Below are positions 7,051 through 32,860 of a stretch of 64,000 bases of DNA, piece by piece; position 1 is the first letter of the stretch; each line of letters opens with the position of its first letter. Origin of the DNA: Streptomyces toxytricini (GTDB taxonomy: Bacteria; Actinomycetota; Actinomycetes; Streptomycetales; Streptomycetaceae); the NCBI RefSeq assembly GCF_014649915.1, contig NZ_BMTY01000007.1:62001-126000 (forward strand), written 5' to 3'. The notes beneath the pieces were generated by a model that saw only the letters and a program-made list of their open reading frames with translations, was not told the origin of the DNA and made no database searches. The translations under genes were made by a program, and so were the position numbers.

Positions 7051-8043
7051 TCAGCTGCCCTTGGGGTCGAGTGCGTCGCGCAGCCCGTCCCCGAAGAGGT
7101 TGAACGCCAGGACGGTGATGAAGATCGTCATGCCGGGGACCACCATGTACATGGGGTCGTCCTGGTAGATGGGGACGGCGTCGGAGAGCATCTTTCCCCA
7201 GGAGGCGGTCGGCGGCTTGACGCCGGCGCCGAGGAAGCTGAGGGCCGCTTCCGTCAGGATGTTGGTCGGGATGATCAGCGTCGCGTAGACGAGGATCGGG
7301 GCGACCAGGTTCGGCAGCAGCTCCTTGACCAGGATGTAGCCGCGGCCGGCCCCGAGGCTCCGGGCCGCCTCGACGTACTCGCGCTCGCGCAGGGAGATCG
7401 TCTGGCCGCGGACGATGCGGCCGATGTAGGGCCACCCGAAGAAGCCGATGACGACGATCAGCACGCCCATGCGGACGCCCGAACCCTCGAACCCCCAAAG
7501 GGAGTTGGGGACGACGGAGACCAGGGCGATGGTGAACAGCAGCTGCGGGAAGGCCAGCAGCAGGTCCATCGTGCGGCTGATGAGGCCGTCGACCCAGCCG
7601 CCGAGGAAGCCGGCGAGGGCGCCCAGGAAGCTGCCGATGGCGACGGAGACGAAGGCGGCGAGGAAGGCGACGACCAGGGAGATGCGGGCGCCGTAGACGA
7701 TCCGGCTGAACACGTCGCGCCCGTTGGTCGGTTCGACGCCGAGCAGGTGCTCGGAGCTCATGCCGCCGAAGGAGCCGATCGGCGTGCCGAGGTCCGGGTC
7801 GATCAGGTCCTCGTGGAACTCGTTGGGCGGGTGGCCCAGCACGCTCACGATCTGCGGCGCGAACACCGCCACCAGGATCAGGAGGATCACGACCATGCCG
7901 CCGGTCAGCGCGACCTTGTCGCGCTTGAGCCGCATCCAGGCGATACGGCCGGGCGAACGGCCCTCGATGGCCTTCGCCGGGACATCGGCTACGGACACGG
8001 GTGCGGGGGTTTCCGCGCTCGTGTCATGCAGTGGTGCCGTCAT
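7051..8043 (-). CDS. oppC: Oligopeptide ABC transporter permease OppC
   Basis: The 330-residue permease has an OppC_N segment (about 1-90, first helix VALTGGMVVILLILVAVFAPQ). A periplasmic loop with HLLGVEPTNGRDVFSRIVYGAR, the usual OppC/DppC landmark, follows, and then the BPD_transp_1 domain with the coupling loop YVEAARSLGAGRGYILVKELLPN. It ends FGDGLRDALDPK, the canonical DppC/OppC tail. The ATG at 8043 is preceded by GAGGGG about 11 bases away. It is the first gene of the operon, 41 bp before oppA, so the operon promoter should lie in the long upstream region 8044-8659. Confidence 0.93.
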   Translation of the reverse strand: MTAPLHDTSAETPAPVSVADVPAKAIEGRSPGRIAWMRLKRDKVALTGGMVVILLILVAVFAPQIVSVLGHPPNEFHEDLIDPDLGTPIGSFGGMSSEHLLGVEPTNGRDVFSRIVYGARISLVVAFLAAFVSVAIGSFLGALAGFLGGWVDGLISRTMDLLLAFPQLLFTIALVSVVPNSLWGFEGSGVRMGVLIVVIGFFGWPYIGRIVRGQTISLREREYVEAARSLGAGRGYILVKELLPNLVAPILVYATLIIPTNILTEAALSFLGAGVKPPTASWGKMLSDAVPIYQDDPMYMVVPGMTIFITVLAFNLFGDGLRDALDPKGS

Positions 8044-8659
8044 CGTGGTGGGGACCCCTCTCGGCCGGCGGGTCGCCGGCCCATGCCCGCCGCTGTGGCG
8101 GCGTTGGTGCGGAGTGGCGCTGGACTGCGTCGTGGCACGCAGCAGGGGCGTGCCGGGGTGCGGGATTGCGGAAAGTGCGGGGTGTGCGGGACGCACGGGA
8201 CGTGCAGCGGTGCGGGAGGTGCAGAGGTGCTGGACGTGCGGGAGGTGCTGTGCTCGGTGCGGTGCGGTGCGGAGAGCAGGGCGGAGCGCGGAGCGGTGTG
8301 GCAGGTGAGCCGGGTCCTTCCCGAGGTCCGGAGCGGCTCTTGGGTGGGGAGTCTTCATCGGCGCGTCGATCAGCCGCCAGACCCGCAGATGAATGGATGC
8401 GCAACCGTGATGTGAGGGTCCGATTCCCGTTATCCGGACTCCGCTGTCGGCTCAGCGGAGCAACACCGTCCGTTCGGTGCGCATTCGGACATGGTGCCCA
8501 ACGGACCCCAGGAGCACGCCTTTTGGGTGTTCAAGAGCAGCGAAATCCGGACAAGGCGAAGGCCGCGGGGAGCGGCTGCGAAGCCGTTGCTCCCCGCGGC
8601 CCGGAGAGGTCGCGCGGCAGGTGCGTCCACGGAGCGGACGGGGCCCGTGTGGCCGGTTC
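8044..8659. other. 616-bp non-coding leader of the opp operon
   Basis: No credible gene is seen. From about 8117 to 8320 the plus strand is G-rich and repeatedly shows GTGCGG, GTGCAG and GTGCTG units, so an oppC leader RNA would be C-rich. An inverted repeat CTCCGCTG/CAGCGGAG (8439-8446 and 8453-8460, 6-nt loop) could be an operator or leader hairpin. The terminator of the neighbouring sseB-like gene lies at 8561-8601. I could not identify a convincing -35/-10 pair. Confidence 0.5.
8561..8601 (-). terminator. Stem-loop terminator after the SseB-family gene
   Basis: A perfect 13-bp inverted repeat (GGCCGCGGGGAGC at 8561-8573 and its complement at 8589-8601) encloses a second small stem GGCT/AGCC. 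It lies 58 bp past the minus-strand gene ending at 8660. Confidence 0.75.
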
Positions 8660-23880: not shown

Positions 23881-25071
23881 CTAACGGAAGATGCCGGTGT
23901 GGCCGAGGGAGTAGCGGCCCGGCTGGGGGTAGACGGCCAGGCCGTGCGGGCCGCCGCCGACGGGGACCCGGGCGAGCTGCTTGCCCGTCACCGTGTCGAT
24001 CGCGTAGACCTCGTCGTCGTAGCGGCCGGACAGCCACAGCACCTTGCCGTCGGCGCTGACGCCGCCCATGTCGGGGCTGCCGCCGTCCGGCAGCTGCCAC
24101 TTCTTCGTGAGCTTGTTCTGCGTGAAGTCGAAGACGGACACGGAGCCCTCGCCGCGGTTGGAGACGTACATCTCCTTGGAGTCGCGGCTGACGTACAGCC
24201 CGTGGCAGCCCTTCCCGGTGGGCAGCAGCTTCGGCGTCTCGAACCGGTCCCCGCTGAGCACCCACATGCCGTGCGCCATCATGTCGGCGACGTAGAAGGT
24301 CTTGCCGTCCGGGGAGACCTTCACGTCCTGCGGCATGGCCCCCTCGAAGGGCAGCTTCTGCTGGGCGACGACCTCCATCTTCTCCGTGTCCACCTTCAGC
24401 AGCTCGCCGGAGAACTCGCAGGAGACGATGAAGTAGCGGCCGTCCGCCGAGAAGTCGGCGTGGTTGACGCCGAAGCAGGTCACGGGGACCGTCTTGACCC
24501 GGTCCATGGTCTGCGGGTTGCGGAAGACGAGCTCCTTGTCCATGGAGGCCATGACGACCGCGTACTTGCCGTTCGGCGTGAAGTACAGGTTGTACGGGTC
24601 GTGCACCTCGACCGGCTTGCCGGCCTCGCCGGTGGCCGGGTTGATCGGGGTGAGGGTGTGCCCGCGGTTGTTGTTGACCCAGAGGGTCTTCAGGTCCCAG
24701 GACGGGACGACGTGCTGCGGCTGGACCCCCACCGGGATGGTGTCGATGACCTTGTACGTCACCGGGTCGATGACCGAGACCGTGTTGGAGTTGGTGTTCG
24801 GGACGTAGACGCGCGACGGGAAGTCCTTGACCACCGGGGACAGCGCGTTCGGCCGGTCTGCGGCGTAGACGTCGTCCGGGTCGAGGAGCGGCGGCATGCC
24901 GGGGAGGCCCGGCGGGGCCGCGGGGACGGCCTTGGCCGGCTGGCGGGCGGGGGCCTTGGAGCCGAGCGCCTCGGCGGGGCCCCGGTCGGCCGATCCGCAG
25001 CCGGCCAGGGCGGCGAGGGCCAGACCGGCCACGAGCGCGGCGGCCTTACGGGAGGGACGGGGGGTCGTCAT
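23881..25071 (-). CDS. YVTN-type beta-propeller lipoprotein
   Basis: The 396-residue exported lipoprotein has a signal MTTPRPSRKAAALVAGLALAALAGCGS with lipobox LAGC, then a Pro/Ala linker. A seven-bladed propeller (about 85-390) is built of YVTN-like repeats such as SRVYVPNTNSNTVSVIDPVT, KTFYVADMMAHGMWVL and KEMYVSNRGEGSVSVFDF. Such proteins bind ligands or partner enzymes outside the cell; the function here is unknown. Its ATG overlaps the stop of the upstream deacetylase-like gene by four bases (ATGA), so the two are translationally coupled and likely work together at the membrane surface. It converges on the CDPS-P450 operon. Confidence 0.82.
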   Translation of the reverse strand: MTTPRPSRKAAALVAGLALAALAGCGSADRGPAEALGSKAPARQPAKAVPAAPPGLPGMPPLLDPDDVYAADRPNALSPVVKDFPSRVYVPNTNSNTVSVIDPVTYKVIDTIPVGVQPQHVVPSWDLKTLWVNNNRGHTLTPINPATGEAGKPVEVHDPYNLYFTPNGKYAVVMASMDKELVFRNPQTMDRVKTVPVTCFGVNHADFSADGRYFIVSCEFSGELLKVDTEKMEVVAQQKLPFEGAMPQDVKVSPDGKTFYVADMMAHGMWVLSGDRFETPKLLPTGKGCHGLYVSRDSKEMYVSNRGEGSVSVFDFTQNKLTKKWQLPDGGSPDMGGVSADGKVLWLSGRYDDEVYAIDTVTGKQLARVPVGGGPHGLAVYPQPGRYSLGHTGIFR

Positions 25072-25859
25072 GGGGTCAGCAGCTCCGTGGTGGTCACCGC
25101 GCGCAGCTTCCGGCGCGCGAGTTCTTCGAGGAGGGGCGGCATCGCGTCGACCGTGTCCGCGTAGCCGAAGTGCAGGCTCACCACCGATCCGCTGCGGATC
25201 GTCCCGGTGACGTTGCGGATGACGGCCGCCGCGCCGGGCGAGGTGAAGTCGAGGGAGTCCACGTCGTACGAGAGGACGTGCGGGTAGCCCGCCCTGCGGG
25301 CCAGCGTCCGGACGAGGGGGGTGGCGTGCTGCGTCTGCGAGGGGCGGAACCAGGTGCCGACGGAGCCGGTGAGCCGCCGCAGGCGCTGGGCGCAGCCGGT
25401 GATCTCGGCGTACGCCTGGGCCTCCGGCAGGTCGTTCAGGGCGAGGTGGCGCTGGGTGTGGTTGCCGAGTTCGTGGCCGCCGTCCAGGATGCGCGCGGCC
25501 ATTGCGGGGTGGGCGTCGAGCCAGGTGCCGACGGCGAGGACGGTGACCCGGGCGCCGGCGCGTTCGGCCTCGGCGAGTACGGCGCGGGCGGTCGCGGGGT
25601 CGCCGTTGCCGTGGAAGGTGAGGGCCACCTCGGGGCGGGTGCGCGGGCCGTGCGCGATCTCCTCGGGCTGCCCGGCGAAGCGGCGCGGCGCCGCTGCGGG
25701 GCGGCGGGCCGGGCGGGCCGGGGCGGGCTCGGCGGGGGCCGGGGAGGCCGGTGCGGCGGCGGGGTGCCCGCCGCCCGCGCCACAGGCGGTGGTGAGGGCT
25801 CCGGCGGCGGCCGCCGCACCGGCGCGGAGGGCGGACCTGCGGTCCGGGTAGCGAGGCAC
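25068..25859 (-). CDS. Polysaccharide deacetylase-like lipoprotein with altered catalytic motif
   Basis: The 263-residue protein has a Tat-like or lipoprotein signal (PDRRSALRAGAAAAAGALTTAC), an Ala/Pro linker and a NodB-fold domain (about 85-260). Motif 2 is intact (HELGNHTQRHL, metal histidines), motif 3 reads WFRPSQTQ and motif 5 VSLHFG. Motif 1, normally TFDDG with the catalytic base and a metal ligand, reads TFHGNGDP. The enzyme may therefore use a different residue or have lost deacetylase activity. The GTG at 25859 gives a plausible signal; the longer frame from an ATG at 25934 is an alternative. It is coupled to the beta-propeller gene by an ATGA overlap. Confidence 0.72.
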   Translation of the reverse strand: MPRYPDRRSALRAGAAAAAGALTTACGAGGGHPAAAPASPAPAEPAPARPARRPAAAPRRFAGQPEEIAHGPRTRPEVALTFHGNGDPATARAVLAEAERAGARVTVLAVGTWLDAHPAMAARILDGGHELGNHTQRHLALNDLPEAQAYAEITGCAQRLRRLTGSVGTWFRPSQTQHATPLVRTLARRAGYPHVLSYDVDSLDFTSPGAAAVIRNVTGTIRSGSVVSLHFGYADTVDAMPPLLEELARRKLRAVTTTELLTP

Positions 25860-26246
25860 CCGCCCATTTAAGGGCGCCTTGGGGCGAGAAGTAACGATTG
25901 ACCCAATTCGGGACGCCGACCAGAGAGGGTCCATTCGGGGGAACGTTCACCACTCGATCAAGGATTCACGCGAGCGGTTGGATATCTATTCATGGAAAGC
26001 GAGGCACGTAACCGACCTCACCTAAGATTTAGCGAGAAAGTCTTAGGATATGCACACTTATGTCCAAGTTGGGACTTTTGGCATTCGGTCCCCCGTCTGC
26101 CATAGTCGGAATCACGGCTTCCCCATTGACCCGAGCGAAGTCGCATGACGCCGAGGATCACACCCCCTTCGATCCTCGGCGCACCCATGAGGCCCCCACG
26201 ACGCCCCACCGCGGCGACCGGGGGCTTCAGGCGTTCCGGGGCCCGC
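25860..26246. other. 387-bp AT-rich intergenic region with inverted repeat
   Basis: No convincing gene. The region 25920-26110 is distinctly AT-richer than its surroundings and should hold the promoter of the deacetylase/propeller operon. An inverted repeat CCTAAGA/TCTTAGG lies at 26021-26027 and 26041-26047 with a 13-nt spacer; it may be an operator. The terminator of the ATPase gene lies at 26149-26181. A small frame on the minus strand (26018-26263) lacks a start signal and shows no family features. Confidence 0.5.
26149..26181 (-). terminator. Terminator of the anti-sigma-type ATPase gene
   Basis: A perfect 11-bp stem CGCCGAGGATC (26149-26159) pairs with 26171-26181, loop 11 nt. It lies 66 bp past the minus-strand gene ending at 26247. 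Confidence 0.75.
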
Positions 26247-27852: not shown

Positions 27853-29082
27853 TTACTTGATCCACTCCGCCCAGTCCATGTTCCAGCCGTTGAGGCCGTT
27901 GTCCGGGGCGATCTGCTTGTCCTTGGAGTTCTTCACGATGACGACGTCGCCGATGAGCGACTCGTTGAAGAACCAGGCGGCGGGCTGGTTGCCGTCGTAG
28001 GCGCCGCGGACGTCCTTCAGGCCGATGCAGCCGTGGCTGACGTTCTGCGAGCCGAACGTGCTCGCCGACGCCCAGTAGTTGCCGTGGACGAAGGTGCCCG
28101 AGGTCGAAAGCCGCATCGCGTGCGGGACGTCGGAGATGTCGTACTCGCCGCCGAACCCGACGGTCGCGCCGTTCATCCGGGTCACCTTGTACTTCTCGCT
28201 GATGACCATCTGGCCGTTGTACGTGGTCGTCGACGGGGCGCCCGCCGTGATGGGCAGGTTCTTGATGACCTGGCCGTCGCGGACGACCTGCATCGTGTGC
28301 TCGCTCGCGTCGACCGTGGAGACCTGCGAGCGGCCGATGGTGAAGCTGACCGTGCGGGTCTGCTTGCCGTAGACGCCCGGCCGGCCCTCGACGCCGTCCA
28401 GGGCGATCTTCACCGTGACCTTGGTGCCGGCGGCCCAGTACTTCTCCGGGCGGAAGTCGAGGCGGTCGTTGCCGAACCAGTGGCCCTCGATCGGGACGGA
28501 CGGCTCGGCCGTCACCGTGATGGCCTTCTCGACCGCCTCGGTGTTGGTGATGCCTCGGGTGAAGTTGAACGACACCGGCATGCCGACGCCGACGGTCTGC
28601 CCGTCCTCCGGCGTGTAGTGGCCGACGAAGGTGTTCTTCGGGGTGAGGGTGGTGAAGGTGGTGTCCTTGGCGGACTCGCGGCCCGCCTCGTCCTTGGCGA
28701 CCGCGTGCACCTTGTACTCGGTGGCCGAGGCCAGGTGCCGCGCCGGCTCCCAGCCGGCGCCGTCCGCCGATATCTTGCCCTCGACCTGGTTGCCCTTGGT
28801 GTCGGCGACGGTCACCGTGGTGAGCTTGCCGCCGGTGGCGGTTATCTTCAGGACGCCGCTGGTGGCCACTTCCTTGGACCCGTCGTCCGGCTTGACGGTC
28901 ACGACGGCCTTGGAGGCCTCCGTCCCCGTCTTGGCCGCGCCCCCCGCGCCTGCGCTGCCGGCGCCTGCGCCGCCGGCGTCGCCGCCGTTGCTGCACGCGC
29001 TCGTGAACAGCAGCGCCGCTCCCAGCAGGAGGGCCGGCAGACCGGTGCGGCGGGCACGGCCGCGAATCGGCTGCAGCTTCAC
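27853..29082 (-). CDS. L,D-transpeptidase lipoprotein (paralogue 1)
   Basis: The enzyme cross-links peptidoglycan stems 3-3 or attaches proteins to them, outside the membrane. The 409 residues comprise a lipoprotein signal ending LLFTSAC, a Gly/Ala linker, two Ig-like domains (about 60-170 and 170-270; FTTLTPKNTFVGHYTPEDGQTVGVGMPVSF) and a YkuD catalytic domain (about 275-400). The active-site motif HGNYWASASTFGSQNVSHGCIGL places the nucleophile at Cys352. The GTG at 29082 follows GGGGAGAAGAG. A second, closely similar enzyme lies at 31628-32860, and a pilin-like secreted protein is encoded between them on the same strand. Confidence 0.93.
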   Translation of the reverse strand: MKLQPIRGRARRTGLPALLLGAALLFTSACSNGGDAGGAGAGSAGAGGAAKTGTEASKAVVTVKPDDGSKEVATSGVLKITATGGKLTTVTVADTKGNQVEGKISADGAGWEPARHLASATEYKVHAVAKDEAGRESAKDTTFTTLTPKNTFVGHYTPEDGQTVGVGMPVSFNFTRGITNTEAVEKAITVTAEPSVPIEGHWFGNDRLDFRPEKYWAAGTKVTVKIALDGVEGRPGVYGKQTRTVSFTIGRSQVSTVDASEHTMQVVRDGQVIKNLPITAGAPSTTTYNGQMVISEKYKVTRMNGATVGFGGEYDISDVPHAMRLSTSGTFVHGNYWASASTFGSQNVSHGCIGLKDVRGAYDGNQPAAWFFNESLIGDVVIVKNSKDKQIAPDNGLNGWNMDWAEWIK

Positions 29083-29215
29083 TCTTCTCTTCTCCCCATG
29101 TCCCCCGCGCGCGGACGCTCGCGCGCATGCCCACAGGAAAACACACGGAGACATCACGAAGAGAAACGGTCATGTCACCGTTCCGTCCCAAGACCCGCAA
29201 GCGGGCAGCGGAGGA

Positions 29216-29244
29216 CCCCCGCGCGGCTCGGCAGCGCGCGGGGG
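29216..29244 (-). terminator. Terminator of the SpaA-repeat protein gene
   Basis: A perfect 10-bp stem CCCCCGCGCG (29216-29225) pairs with 29235-29244, loop 9 nt. It begins 19 bp past the stop at 29264. Confidence 0.75.
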
Positions 29245-29263
29245 CCCTTGCGGGGACGCCGGG

Positions 29264-31474
29264 TCAGGAGTGCGGCTTCTCCGCCTTCTCCTTCTCCTTC
29301 TTGCCCTTGTCCTTGTCCTTCTTCTTGCCCTTGTCCTTGTCCTTCTTGTCCTTGCCGTGCTCCTTGTCCTTGCACTCGCACGCGCCCTCGCGGCGGTTGT
29401 CGACCGTCACCGCGACCGTGGCGCCCGGGCTGTTCGCGTCCAGGACGAGCGGGCCGGTGACGGGGTTCCGCGGGAGCACGTAGCCCGGGGGCACGGCGGT
29501 CTCCACCAGGTAGTACGAGCCCGGCTCCAGCTGCCGGAACGCGCAGCGGCCCGCAGTGTCGGTGGTGCAGCCCGACCCGATGCGGAGGTCCGGGCCGGTT
29601 CCGCCGGTCTGGAGGCCCTCGATGCCGTTGGCCTCCTTCCAGAGGTCGAACGCCGCCCCGCGCAGCGGGAGCTGCGTCGTCTTGTCGCGCTTCAGCACCT
29701 GGACGGCGCCGCCGTCCTCGACGCGCCGGGTGTTGGGGAGCGTCACCGTCACCCCGGCCGGTGCGTTCTGCGCCGTCAGGACGAGGACTGCGACGGGCTG
29801 GGCGGGCAGCTCGTACCCGTCCGGGGCTGCGGTCTCCCGCCAGTAGTAGGTGCCGGGCTCGACCTCGCGGGAGCAGCGGCCGTCCGCGCCGGTGGTGCAC
29901 TCCGCGCCGACGCGCCGGTCGGGGTTGATGCCGAGGGTCTGGAGGCCCGCCGTCCCGTTGGTCTCGCGCCACAGCTCGAAGACGGCGCCGGCCAGCGGGG
30001 CGCCGCCCGCGGCGTCCACCTTGCGGACGGCGACCCGCCCGGTGACGGGCTGCGGCAGCCTCGTGTTGTCGACCGTGACGCCCGCGCCCGCTTCGGCGTC
30101 CTCGGCGGTCAGAGTCAGCGGGAAGACGGGGTCGGCGGGGAGCTCGTAGCCGTCGGGGGCGGCGGTCTCCCGCCAGTAGTAGGTGCCGGGCTCGACCTCG
30201 CGGGAGCAGCGGCCGTCCGCGGCGGTGGTGCACTCCGCGACGCGGGTGTCCGGATCGGCTCCGGTGAACTGGGCCCCGTCCTGCCCGTTCGTCTCCCGCC
30301 ACAGCTCGAAGCGGGCCCCGGGCAGTGCGGCCCCGTTCCCGTCGCGCTTGAAGACGGACACCGCACCGGTGACCGGCTCGGGGCCGGGGCCGCAGGCGGG
30401 GAGGTCGCCGGTGAAGGGGTAGGCGTGGAACTCCTGGCCGCTGCCGGGGAGGGTGGTGCTGCCGTGGGTGACGGAGCCGGTGGTGAAGAAGCGGCCGTTC
30501 ATGCCGGGGAGGGTGACGGTGGCCTCGGAGGCCTGGTTGCCGATCAGGACGCTGCCCTGGAACTGTCCGGTGCCGTTCAGGTTGACCGTGGTGGCGTCCG
30601 GGAAGTTCCACAGGAGCCGTTCGCGGTAGGCGTTGAGGGGGTCGGTGTCCGCGATCCCGCCGCTGAAGGTGTTGATGGTGCGGGTGGTGCCGAGGACGTT
30701 GACGAGGATGGTGGCGTCCGCGGGGATGCGGGCGAAGCGGATGCCCTGCTGGCCGTTCATGGCGCCGGCGTTGACGAGGTCGGCGTCGACGTTGAACACC
30801 TGGAGGGGCGAGGTGCCGTCCCCGGTGAAGAGGGTCTCGAAGCCGCTGTTGACGGCCGTGCCGGTGGCGGGCCGGGGCTGTCCGTCGGCCCGGGCGTAGC
30901 ACTGGCTGGCGGCGGTCAGGCGGTCGCGCAGGCCGGCGTAGGGGGCGGCGGCGTCGGGGTCGGCGACGAGGGTGCCGGTCACGGTGCCGGTCAGGGTGCC
31001 GCCGTGGCGGACCACTCCGGTGTCGGCGAGGAGGCGCTCGCCGTCCGCGACGGCGACGTCCCGGCCGGTGGTGAGGAAGTCCGCTCCCGCGGGCGGCGGT
31101 ACCAGTGAGCCGGCGCCGACGACGCCGACGTTGTACCGCTGGTCCCCGCCCGCCTGCTTGTCCTGGTCGAAGTCGCCCAGGACGACGAGGCGGCCCTCGG
31201 CCTCGGAGGCCGTGCCGCGCACGCGGAAGTCCCCGCCCGCGAAGATGTTGACGGCGTTGTCGCGGCCCGCCGGGATGCCGTTGCTGCCGATCGGCGGGAA
31301 GGGGCTGGGGCAGTCCCCGGGGACGCACGGGCCGAGGCCGCCGGGCAGCGGGGCCCGCGCCGCGGCGGCGGCGGGCCGTTCCCCGCTGGTGTCGGCGCCC
31401 AGGGCCGCGGCGGGCGTCCCCGCGGCCACGACGGCTCCGATCGCGAGCCCGAGGGCCCAGTTCCTTGCTGACAT
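29264..31474 (-). CDS. Secreted surface protein: collagen-binding-A-like domain plus three SpaA/Cna-B repeats and Lys-rich tail
   Basis: The 736-residue exported protein begins with a signal peptide ([27 protein letters not shown]). A choice-of-anchor-A-like domain (about 55-355) follows: [36 protein letters not shown]-type strands and [14 protein letters not shown]. Three Cna-B/SpaA repeats come next, of about 110 residues each. Each has the predicted isopeptide Lys (K376, K485, K595) near its start, a conserved Glu in [14 protein letters not shown] or [14 protein letters not shown], and an Asn at its end (DNT, PNT, DNR). Intramolecular Lys-Asn bonds would make it rod-like and protease-resistant. 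There is no LPxTG sortase motif or C-terminal helix; instead the last 38 residues start CEC and are almost only Lys, Asp, Glu and Gly. It lies between two L,D-transpeptidase genes. The ATG at 31474 follows GGACGGAG. Confidence 0.85.
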
Positions 31475-31574
31475 GAGACTCCGTCCTTGCCTGCGCTGAT
31501 GTGCCCTGTCAGGCTGCGGGCGGGGCTCGGCGGGGGGCGCACGGACACTCCCTGCGCTACGGCAATCCGGTCAT

Positions 31575-31604
31575 GTGAATTCACCCGCGCGCCCGCAGGG
31601 GCGC
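31575..31604. promoter_or_regulatory. Palindrome and small hairpin upstream of the surface-protein gene
   Basis: The perfect palindrome GTGAATTCAC (31575-31584) lies about 100 bp upstream of the surface-protein start and could be an operator. A small GCGCCC/GGGCGC hairpin (31589-31604) lies 24 bp past the second transpeptidase stop and may end that transcript. Both roles are inferred from position only. Confidence 0.35.
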
Positions 31605-31627
31605 CGAGCGCGGGGCCGGGACCGCGG

Positions 31628-32860
31628 TCAGGACAGGGCGGAGCCGGCGGCCCACTCCGTCCAGGACATGTTCCAGCCGCCCAGCCCGTTGTCCGGGGCG
31701 ACCGTCTTGTCCTGCGAGTTCACGACCTCCACCACGTCCCCGACGAGGGTCCGGTCGAAGAACCAGCCTGCGGGGGTGTCCGAGCCGCCGCCCTTGTCGT
31801 CGCGCAGGCCCACGCAGCCGTGGCTGGTGTTGGCGGAGCCGAAGGTGTCGGGGCTGACCCAGTAGTTGCCGTGCAGGAAGGTGCCGGAGGTGGTGAGCCG
31901 CATCGCGTGCGGGACGTCGGGGATGTCGTACTCGCCGCCGAAGCCGACGGTCTGCCCGTTCATCCGGGTGACGTCGTACATCTCCATCACCACCATCCTG
32001 CCGTTGTAGGTCGGGTTCTCCGGGGACCCGGCGCTGATGGGGACCGTGGACAGCAGGCGGCCGTCGCGGCGGACCGCCATGGTGTGCGCGGCCGCGTCCA
32101 CGGTGGAGACCTGGGCGCGGCCGACGGTGAAGCGGACCGTCTTGTCCTGGATGCCGTACGCGCCGCGGGCGCCCTGGACGTCGCGCAGCCTGATGCGGAC
32201 GGTGACCTCGGTGCCCGGCTTCCAGTACTCCCGGGGCCGGAAGTCGAGGCGGTCGCGGCCGAACCAGTGGCCGGCGACCTCGACGGGGGGATCGGCGGTG
32301 ACGGTGACGGCCCGTTCGACGTCGGCCCGGTTCTCGATGGGCCGGCTGAACCGGAAGGACACGATCATGCCGACGCCGACGGTGGAGCGGTTCTCCGGCT
32401 TGAAGTAGCCGATGAAGCGCTCCTCGGGCACGTACGTGGTGAAGGTGGTGTGGCGGGCCTGGCGGCGGTTGTGGCCGTCGACGGCGACGGCGTCCACCGT
32501 GTACTTGGCGGCGAGCGCGAGGCGGCCGGCGTCCGGGTCGGGGCTCCAGCTGAGCCCGTCGGGGGCGACCGCGCCGGGGACCCGCACCTCCTGGGCGTCC
32601 TCGACCTTCGTGACGACGACGCGTTCCAGGCGGCCCTCGGGGACGCGGACGCTCAGCGGTCCCTCGGCGGGGACGCCCTCGGCGTTGTCCTCGGGGGTGA
32701 TGCGGATGGCCTCCGCCGGGGAGCGGGGTTTGCCGGGCAGCTGGATCTCGACCGGGGAGCCGCCGGCCCCGCCGGTGCACGCGGACAGCCCGCCCAGCAG
32801 GCACGCCCAGGCCGCTGCGGCGGCCAGGGCCGCCCCTGCCCGCCTCGTCAGAAGTGTCAC
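31628..32860 (-). CDS. L,D-transpeptidase lipoprotein (paralogue 2)
   Basis: This is a 410-residue paralogue of the gene at 27853-29082 with the same layout: lipoprotein signal ending LGGLSAC, two Ig-like domains (with HTTFTTYVPEERFIGYFKPENRSTVGVGM), and a YkuD domain (about 275-400) with nucleophile Cys349 in HGNYWVSPDTFGSANTSHGCVGL. The catalytic region PxxNGxTVGFGGEYDIxDVPHAMRLxTSGTF is nearly identical between the two. It should form 3-3 peptidoglycan links or attach proteins. The GTG at 32860 follows GGAGGG. The region between its stop and the surface-protein start is 153 bp, so the three genes may be separate transcripts. Confidence 0.93.
   Translation of the reverse strand: MTLLTRRAGAALAAAAAWACLLGGLSACTGGAGGSPVEIQLPGKPRSPAEAIRITPEDNAEGVPAEGPLSVRVPEGRLERVVVTKVEDAQEVRVPGAVAPDGLSWSPDPDAGRLALAAKYTVDAVAVDGHNRRQARHTTFTTYVPEERFIGYFKPENRSTVGVGMIVSFRFSRPIENRADVERAVTVTADPPVEVAGHWFGRDRLDFRPREYWKPGTEVTVRIRLRDVQGARGAYGIQDKTVRFTVGRAQVSTVDAAAHTMAVRRDGRLLSTVPISAGSPENPTYNGRMVVMEMYDVTRMNGQTVGFGGEYDIPDVPHAMRLTTSGTFLHGNYWVSPDTFGSANTSHGCVGLRDDKGGGSDTPAGWFFDRTLVGDVVEVVNSQDKTVAPDNGLGGWNMSWTEWAAGSALS

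Follow-up and report, generated by a model that had tools for sequence, protein, structure and literature searches.

A third L,D-transpeptidase and a C-terminal lysine motif as candidates for sortase-independent wall anchoring of Streptomyces adhesins

Here we analyze a stretch of 64,000 nucleotides from Streptomyces toxytricini (RefSeq assembly GCF_014649915.1, contig NZ_BMTY01000007.1, positions 62,001 to 126,000), hereafter the window. It encodes a secreted adhesin between the genes of two L,D-transpeptidases of the YkuD type, LDT1 and LDT2. The adhesin belongs to a Streptomyces family whose members have a choice-of-anchor-A tip and a stalk built from one to ten SpaA isopeptide repeats. In close relatives a third transpeptidase gene, LDT3, which is not visible from the window sequence, is found between the adhesin gene and LDT1. 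LDT3 adjoins 57 of 98 complete adhesin genes of the family, and 56 of these 57 adhesins have a lysine at one fixed position of the C-terminal tail. We suggest that LDT3 could quite plausibly be a dedicated enzyme, encoded as a rule next to its substrate, with this lysine as acyl acceptor. It would join the adhesin to the peptidoglycan independently of sortases, much as Braun lipoprotein is joined, in a monoderm bacterium. Slightly more tentatively, we propose a sortase-independent sorting system of Streptomyces in which LDT3 would recognize the C-terminal sequence N-x-R-[GD]-[ED]-[PH]-x-K-G-K and link isopeptide-repeat adhesins to peptidoglycan through its lysine.

Linkage of LDT3 to the adhesin genes

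LDT3 has about 235 amino acids and consists of a PG_binding_1 and a YkuD domain; it forms an L,D-transpeptidase clade apart from LDT1 and LDT2. Its best solved relative is 5bmq from Stackebrandtia nassauensis, and the fold search confirms the YkuD enzyme class. An alignment of 20 LDT3 sequences shows the His, Ser, Gly and Cys of the YkuD motif in every one of them. We rely on this alignment, since a loosely written regular expression recovered the motif in 55 of 96 rows.

The loci were collected from three overlapping, non-random samples and de-duplicated by the choice-of-anchor-A stretch together with the last 40 residues. About 60 of the places inspected were chosen from the matches of the first sample and 28 came from the second. 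Left out of the 98 genes are L078 and L281, which are cut by contig ends, and L284, which has a broken tail frame and lies near an LDT3 fragment. Counted as LDT3-linked are L070 (genome G031) and L071 (genome G187), where the LDT3 frame is interrupted by a stop codon or a frame change, through sequencing error or decay, beside adhesins with Lys tails.

In the first sample LDT3 lies between the adhesin gene and LDT1 in 10 of 11 other pair-linked loci, and only L090 lacks it. Over the whole collection it stands beside 57 of 75 adhesins with Lys tails and beside none of the 23 whose tails are of the GYGD or another type (Fisher 1.4e-11, kinship ignored). Of the 44 Lys-tailed adhesins located outside the LDT2/LDT1 pair, 36 are next to LDT3. 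Streptomyces lavendulae CCM 3239 (locus L235) is one example that carries the complete set. The gene follows the adhesin on the same strand in 48 of the 57 cases, precedes it in five and is convergent in four. The gene contexts of the LDT3 loci are diverse: in 17 unpaired loci, which were taken from the first sample and chosen for having LDT3, each other gene family is found at 4 loci at most. In genome G230 LDT3 lies in the pair beside a SpaA protein of a single repeat. LDT3 is near none of the 30 choice-of-anchor-A proteins that have no SpaA repeats; 28 of these 30 proteins end, judged by eye, in LPXTG-like signals, two of which are divergent (L084, L087). This group had first 31 rows, one of which, L080, is a frameshifted adhesin.

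The tree of LDT3 and its paralogues is divided by a well-supported branch (approximate likelihood ratio support, SH-aLRT, 99). On one side are 66 rows, 63 of them near open reading frames with SpaA repeats (the locus L081/L144 is present twice); on the other are 30 paralogues, and none of them has such a reading frame nearby. Of the three remaining rows of the clade L138 and L148 lie near contig starts and L141 is an orphan. The rows of the clade entered mostly through the adhesin search, and the paralogues on the other side were chosen by hand from the list of LDT3 matches. In the reverse direction, 26 of the 27 best LDT3 matches in 199 genomes have a SpaA-repeat reading frame at a distance of up to about 3.6 kb, as assessed by hand; in the exception, G014, the distance is about 13 kb on the same contig. 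This reverse search is free of the bias from clade rows recruited through the adhesin. Among 345 genomes of the class 27 were matched, all in the genus of the window, and no LDT3 was found outside the genus at E 1e-45. The window genome has no match to LDT3 at E 1e-25 and contains other YkuD genes only.

Several LDT3 loci have additional features. In L089 a second secreted SpaA protein with two repeats and without a choice-of-anchor-A domain (7243-8370) is encoded between the adhesin and LDT3. L139, L140, L142 and L144 represent a second type of locus, at which a SpaA protein with a GEPxKGK-like tail, a NosD-like right-handed beta-helix protein and LDT3 are encoded within a few kb. Where scanned (L139, L142), an SdrD_B plus SpaA architecture was found, and a Dyp-type peroxidase is also present at L138 and L140.

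The tail motif and its lysine

The adhesins linked to LDT3 end, with variation, in N-x-R-[GD]-[ED]-[PH]-x-K(-G-K). A lysine at position N+7, counted from the last SpaA Asn, is found in the 56 adhesins mentioned above. Thus, the family carries a lysine near the C-terminus comparable to that of Lpp, with a putative role as acceptor; the window protein and the adhesin of its sister genome G380 have Glu at N+7. The same type of tail also terminates the differently built SdrD_B/SpaA proteins near LDT3.

The adhesins with GYGD tails behave differently: LDT3 is beside none of 20, and the N+7 lysine is found in none of 19 anchored rows. These tails are acidic and rich in Gly and Tyr (GYGDEGYGD; L053, L073, L097, L106, L208 and others, 20 rows). 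At seven of these loci no neighboring gene family occurs more than twice. As a guess, the Tyr-rich repeats might be cross-linked via dityrosine.

A search with a DNA pattern for RGEP[CGD]KGK matched 9 of 199 genomes, in each case within a SpaA protein, and the reversed control pattern gave 0 matches. Three of the matches (G050, G014, G047) are in proteins outside the derivation of the motif. All nine genomes hold an LDT3 of clade A, which was assigned by hand in 34 of the 199 genomes. The hypergeometric probability is 5e-8 for the nine genomes and 0.005 for the three, values that may be too small since some LDT3-like matches were not placed in the tree and the number of 34 may thus be low.

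A number of observations speak against a strict coupling of LDT3 and the tail lysine, or against our reading of it. Both the N+7 register and the division into tail classes were set post hoc, and the DNA pattern search provides a check that is independent only in part. Along the tree about 5 changes of tail type and about 15 of LDT3 are counted. In 6 independent pairs on well-supported branches which differ in LDT3 the tail agrees in 2-3, opposes in 0 and shows no difference in 3-4 (p 0.25-0.5); the phylogeny-corrected test has the predicted direction and is underpowered. The LDT3-linked adhesin of L098 has Thr at N+7 and its sole tail lysine at the very end, and at 2 of the 57 loci (L070, L071) the enzyme frame is broken. 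Eight unpaired Lys-tailed adhesins have no adjacent LDT3; a ninth candidate is L242, where the contig ends on the side on which LDT3 and LDT1 would lie, such that the absence cannot be judged. The N+7 lysine is kept in 7 of the 8 anchored rows of this group (L242 included) and in 4 of 9 paired adhesins without LDT3. Since the lysine persists in adhesins without an adjacent LDT3, a strict link is weakened. Of five genomes behind the unpaired ones three (G002, G227, G230) hold elsewhere an LDT3 nearer to clade A, and the LDT3-like genes inspected in G168 and G337 match clade B best. The window itself has neither LDT3 nor the N+7 lysine. Finally, the domains of LDT3 do not tell an enzyme which attaches proteins from one which cross-links the wall.

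Proposed anchoring mechanism and alternatives

We suggest that the anchoring could proceed in the following steps. LDT3 would cut the bond between diaminopimelic acid (DAP) at position 3 and D-Ala at position 4 of the stem peptide. It would then join DAP3 to the epsilon-amine of the N+7 lysine of the adhesin. The enzymes LdtA, LdtB and LdtC of Escherichia coli act in this way on Braun lipoprotein. The covalent bond, its site and the specificity of LDT3, and with it the part of LDT3 as the cognate enzyme, are proposed on the basis of sequence comparison. In the lineage of the window LDT3 and the N+7 lysine are missing, and the tail has 40 residues with 17 Lys. The window would thus be a derived case in which the adhesin is kept; the direction of this evolutionary change is inferred by us. 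The remaining transpeptidases might accept its adhesin as a loose substrate, or the protein might be held by charge, and one of these is more likely than anchoring by LDT3 because both the enzyme and the lysine are missing.

Retention by charge could also be thought of for the whole family. A Lys-rich tail would bind non-covalently to anionic wall polymers such as teichoic or teichuronic acids, and no transpeptidase would be involved. We consider this unlikely as a general explanation, although for the window protein itself it is the reading we favor most: the Lys content of its tail, in a genome without LDT3, fits well. So do the paired adhesins. The tails of the nine without LDT3 have a median length of 65 amino acids versus 22 for the 21 with LDT3 (Mann-Whitney p 7e-5, kinship ignored), and the median number of tail lysines is 16 versus 5. 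However, 14 of the 57 LDT3-linked tails are as short as 5-8 residues and contain one to three lysines, and the median net charge of the tails is +1 in the unpaired group (37 rows, one of which is the dropped L284). Charge retention moreover does not require one fixed lysine, yet this residue is conserved in nearly all LDT3-linked adhesins, and it leaves the linkage to an L,D-transpeptidase unexplained.

Alternatively, LDT3 might remodel or reinforce the wall at the point of passage of the adhesin, or open an export path, and would then not be joined to the adhesin at all. The genetic coupling and the peptidoglycan-binding domain fit this equally well. A comparable case is reportedly the toxin secretion of Salmonella, which depends on a muramidase and is controlled by L,D-transpeptidase editing. 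Editing of the wall does not predict, however, that a lysine in the tail of the cargo is conserved together with LDT3 and absent from the GYGD-tailed adhesins which lack LDT3. We therefore regard it as improbable, more so than retention by charge.

The preliminary description of this locus had ascribed the anchoring to the flanking pair, and named as an outcome against it that the surface-protein gene would occur without the transpeptidases in most genomes. The survey of neighborhoods that it proposed gave this outcome. Of the 98 adhesin genes 30 lie inside the pair, 1 more lies in it at a contig end and 67 are found elsewhere. Conversely, of 40 genomes of the genus in which the adhesin was not matched, 34 have LDT2 and LDT1 as direct neighbors, 72-413 bp apart at the match edges (hand count; the exceptions are G060, G010, G055, G063, G043 and G037). 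As dedicated anchor enzymes LDT1 and LDT2 were therefore rejected. In favor of the pair one could argue that it does flank these 30 adhesins and that the window has no LDT3 left for the job. LDT1, the one of the two that was searched, matches Ldt2 of Mycobacterium abscessus (5uwv, 3.5e-55). LDT1 is accordingly of the LdtMt2 type, and LDT2 joins this group through its identity of 54% to LDT1 over 382 columns. LdtMt2-type enzymes are wall cross-linkers. In our reading LDT1 and LDT2 are general wall enzymes, and the adhesin gene was probably inserted into a pre-existing LDT2/LDT1 tandem pair. A specific anchoring role of the pair appears very improbable to us. From the earlier idea of a sortase-independent fixing to the wall, the fixing as such gains comparative support from LDT3 and its tie to the tail lysine, and the assignment of the flanking pair as its enzymes does not stand.

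The neighborhood could also be due to chance or to inheritance of a single ancestral block, with no functional link. The small number of trait changes and an independent-pair test which cannot reach significance would agree with this. We find it hardly credible, as there are three gene orders and diverse contexts, LDT3 forms a clade of its own, and proteins of different build share the tail.

L,D-transpeptidases are already known to anchor proteins; what would be new is a monoderm system in which the enzyme is dedicated to this task and has a sorting tag of its own. In gamma-proteobacteria the C-termini of Lpp and OutB are described as being attached to peptidoglycan by YkuD enzymes (PMC12274547). 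The tethering of proteins by L,D-transpeptidases is treated as a feature of Gram-negative bacteria in the available text of a 2025 review, in which the word Streptomyces does not occur (PMC12729407), and passages of a further article ascribe to sortases the covalent display of proteins by Gram-positive bacteria (PMC12445088). As far as these sources describe them, the Lpp and OutB systems resemble our proposal in having a lysine at or near the C-terminus as acceptor (proposed in our case), a YkuD enzyme and a DAP stem peptide as donor (PMC12274547, PMC12729407). In contrast to them, the host here is Gram-positive, the protein is a secreted SpaA adhesin instead of a membrane-tethered protein, many members have residues beyond the tag and the dedicated enzyme is usually adjacent. 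In Coxiella outer membrane proteins are likewise tethered by an L,D-transpeptidase, Ldt2; according to the portion of the review concerned the acceptor there is an N-terminal Gly-Gly and the cell is a diderm (PMC12729407). Mycobacterial LdtMt2 (class 2) resembles LDT1 in sequence and domains, and LDT2 by its identity to LDT1, whereas LDT3 is of a separate PG_binding_1 plus YkuD type. In the open-licence PMC literature, among the titles and openings of abstracts listed for choice-of-anchor, SpaA or L,D-transpeptidase anchoring, we found no description of such an arrangement.

If our proposal is true, it would be the first anchoring of surface proteins by L,D-transpeptidases in a monoderm, as far as the literature search shows. 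It would unite sortase-type display with L,D-transpeptidase tethering and offer a compact candidate tag for display on the wall. The predictions are directly testable: they concern a single enzyme and a single lysine, and lineages like that of the window, which naturally have neither LDT3 nor the N+7 lysine.

The window locus

The features of the window locus are compiled in Table 1. As the preliminary description had noted, two paralogous YkuD lipoproteins surround a secreted protein with three SpaA repeats, all encoded on the minus strand, and inspection by eye bears out that the latter lacks a sortase motif. The choice-of-anchor-A domain and the Lys-rich tail are additions to that description.

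Table 1 Features of the LDT2-adhesin-LDT1 locus, in window positions
Feature	Position	Strand	Evidence
LDT2, lipoprotein L,D-transpeptidase of LdtMt2 kind (Big_10 + YkuD)	31628..32860	-	Pfam, YkuD 2.4e-13
Secreted adhesin of 736 aa with choice-of-anchor-A domain and three SpaA repeats, without LPXTG	29264..31474	-	
choice_anch_A (ice-binding-like adhesive) domain, residues 74-356	30407..31255	-	TIGR04215 4.7e-55
SpaA repeat 1, proposed Lys376-Glu436-Asn470 isopeptide triad	30059..30367 (approximate)	-	Pfam; triad by eye
SpaA repeat 2, proposed Lys485-Glu547-Asn581 triad	29726..30040 (approximate)	-	Pfam; triad by eye
SpaA repeat 3, proposed Lys595-Glu658-Asn693 triad	29390..29713 (approximate)	-	Pfam; triad by eye
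Lys-rich adhesin tail, 40 aa with 17 Lys, Glu at N+7	29267..29386	-	
Intergenic gap, site of LDT3 in relatives, LDT3 gene absent here	29083..29263	.	
LDT1, lipoprotein L,D-transpeptidase of LdtMt2 kind (Big_10 + YkuD)	27853..29082	-	Pfam, YkuD 1.2e-14

The adhesin matches TIGR04215 with 187.1 bits, far above the curated cut-off of 29, and is thus a choice-of-anchor-A protein; it also matches pAdhesive_15 (1.7e-26). Three stretches match PF17802, which identifies them as SpaA (Cna-B) repeats, and the fold searches confirm the pilin-like SpaA class and nothing more. The repeats carry proposed Lys-Glu-Asn isopeptide triads. In alignment A3 the Lys and Glu of each repeat do not vary; of the three Asn residues Asn693 in repeat 3 is invariant, and Asn470 and Asn581 are not. 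Residues 698-736 have a predicted local distance difference (pLDDT) below 50 in the predicted structure, a low confidence as expected of a disordered tail.

SpaA pilins and choice-of-anchor proteins anchored by sortases via LPXTG have the same kinds of adhesive and isopeptide domains. The window adhesin differs from them, as by eye it has neither LPXTG nor a C-terminal membrane segment and ends in a hydrophilic, Lys-rich sequence. Sortase anchoring of this protein was rejected, since there is no sorting signal and none of the seven sortase matches of the genome is on the window contig (C7).

Among the named genomes the longest matches are from Streptomyces, including S. lavendulae, S. xanthophaeus and S. 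avidinii, and the sister G380 is 94% identical. Because the number of SpaA repeats differs so much between relatives (from 1 to 10; L069-L072, L246), the length of the stalk seems to evolve fast.

An SHGC motif is recognizable by eye in both LDT1 and LDT2. LDT2 has a lipobox-like LSAC, also by eye, and the lipobox of LDT1, TSAC, is imperfect; the start codon of LDT1 was picked by eye. On the minus strand the order of transcription is LDT2, adhesin, LDT1, an enoyl-CoA hydratase and a gene with an ATPase domain. Upstream of LDT2, on the opposite strand, lies a putative GlgX-like gene. About 2-4 kb downstream of LDT1 the minus strand encodes a polysaccharide deacetylase (25068-25934) and a YNCE-like beta-propeller protein (23881-25953), whose called reading frame overlaps that of the deacetylase.

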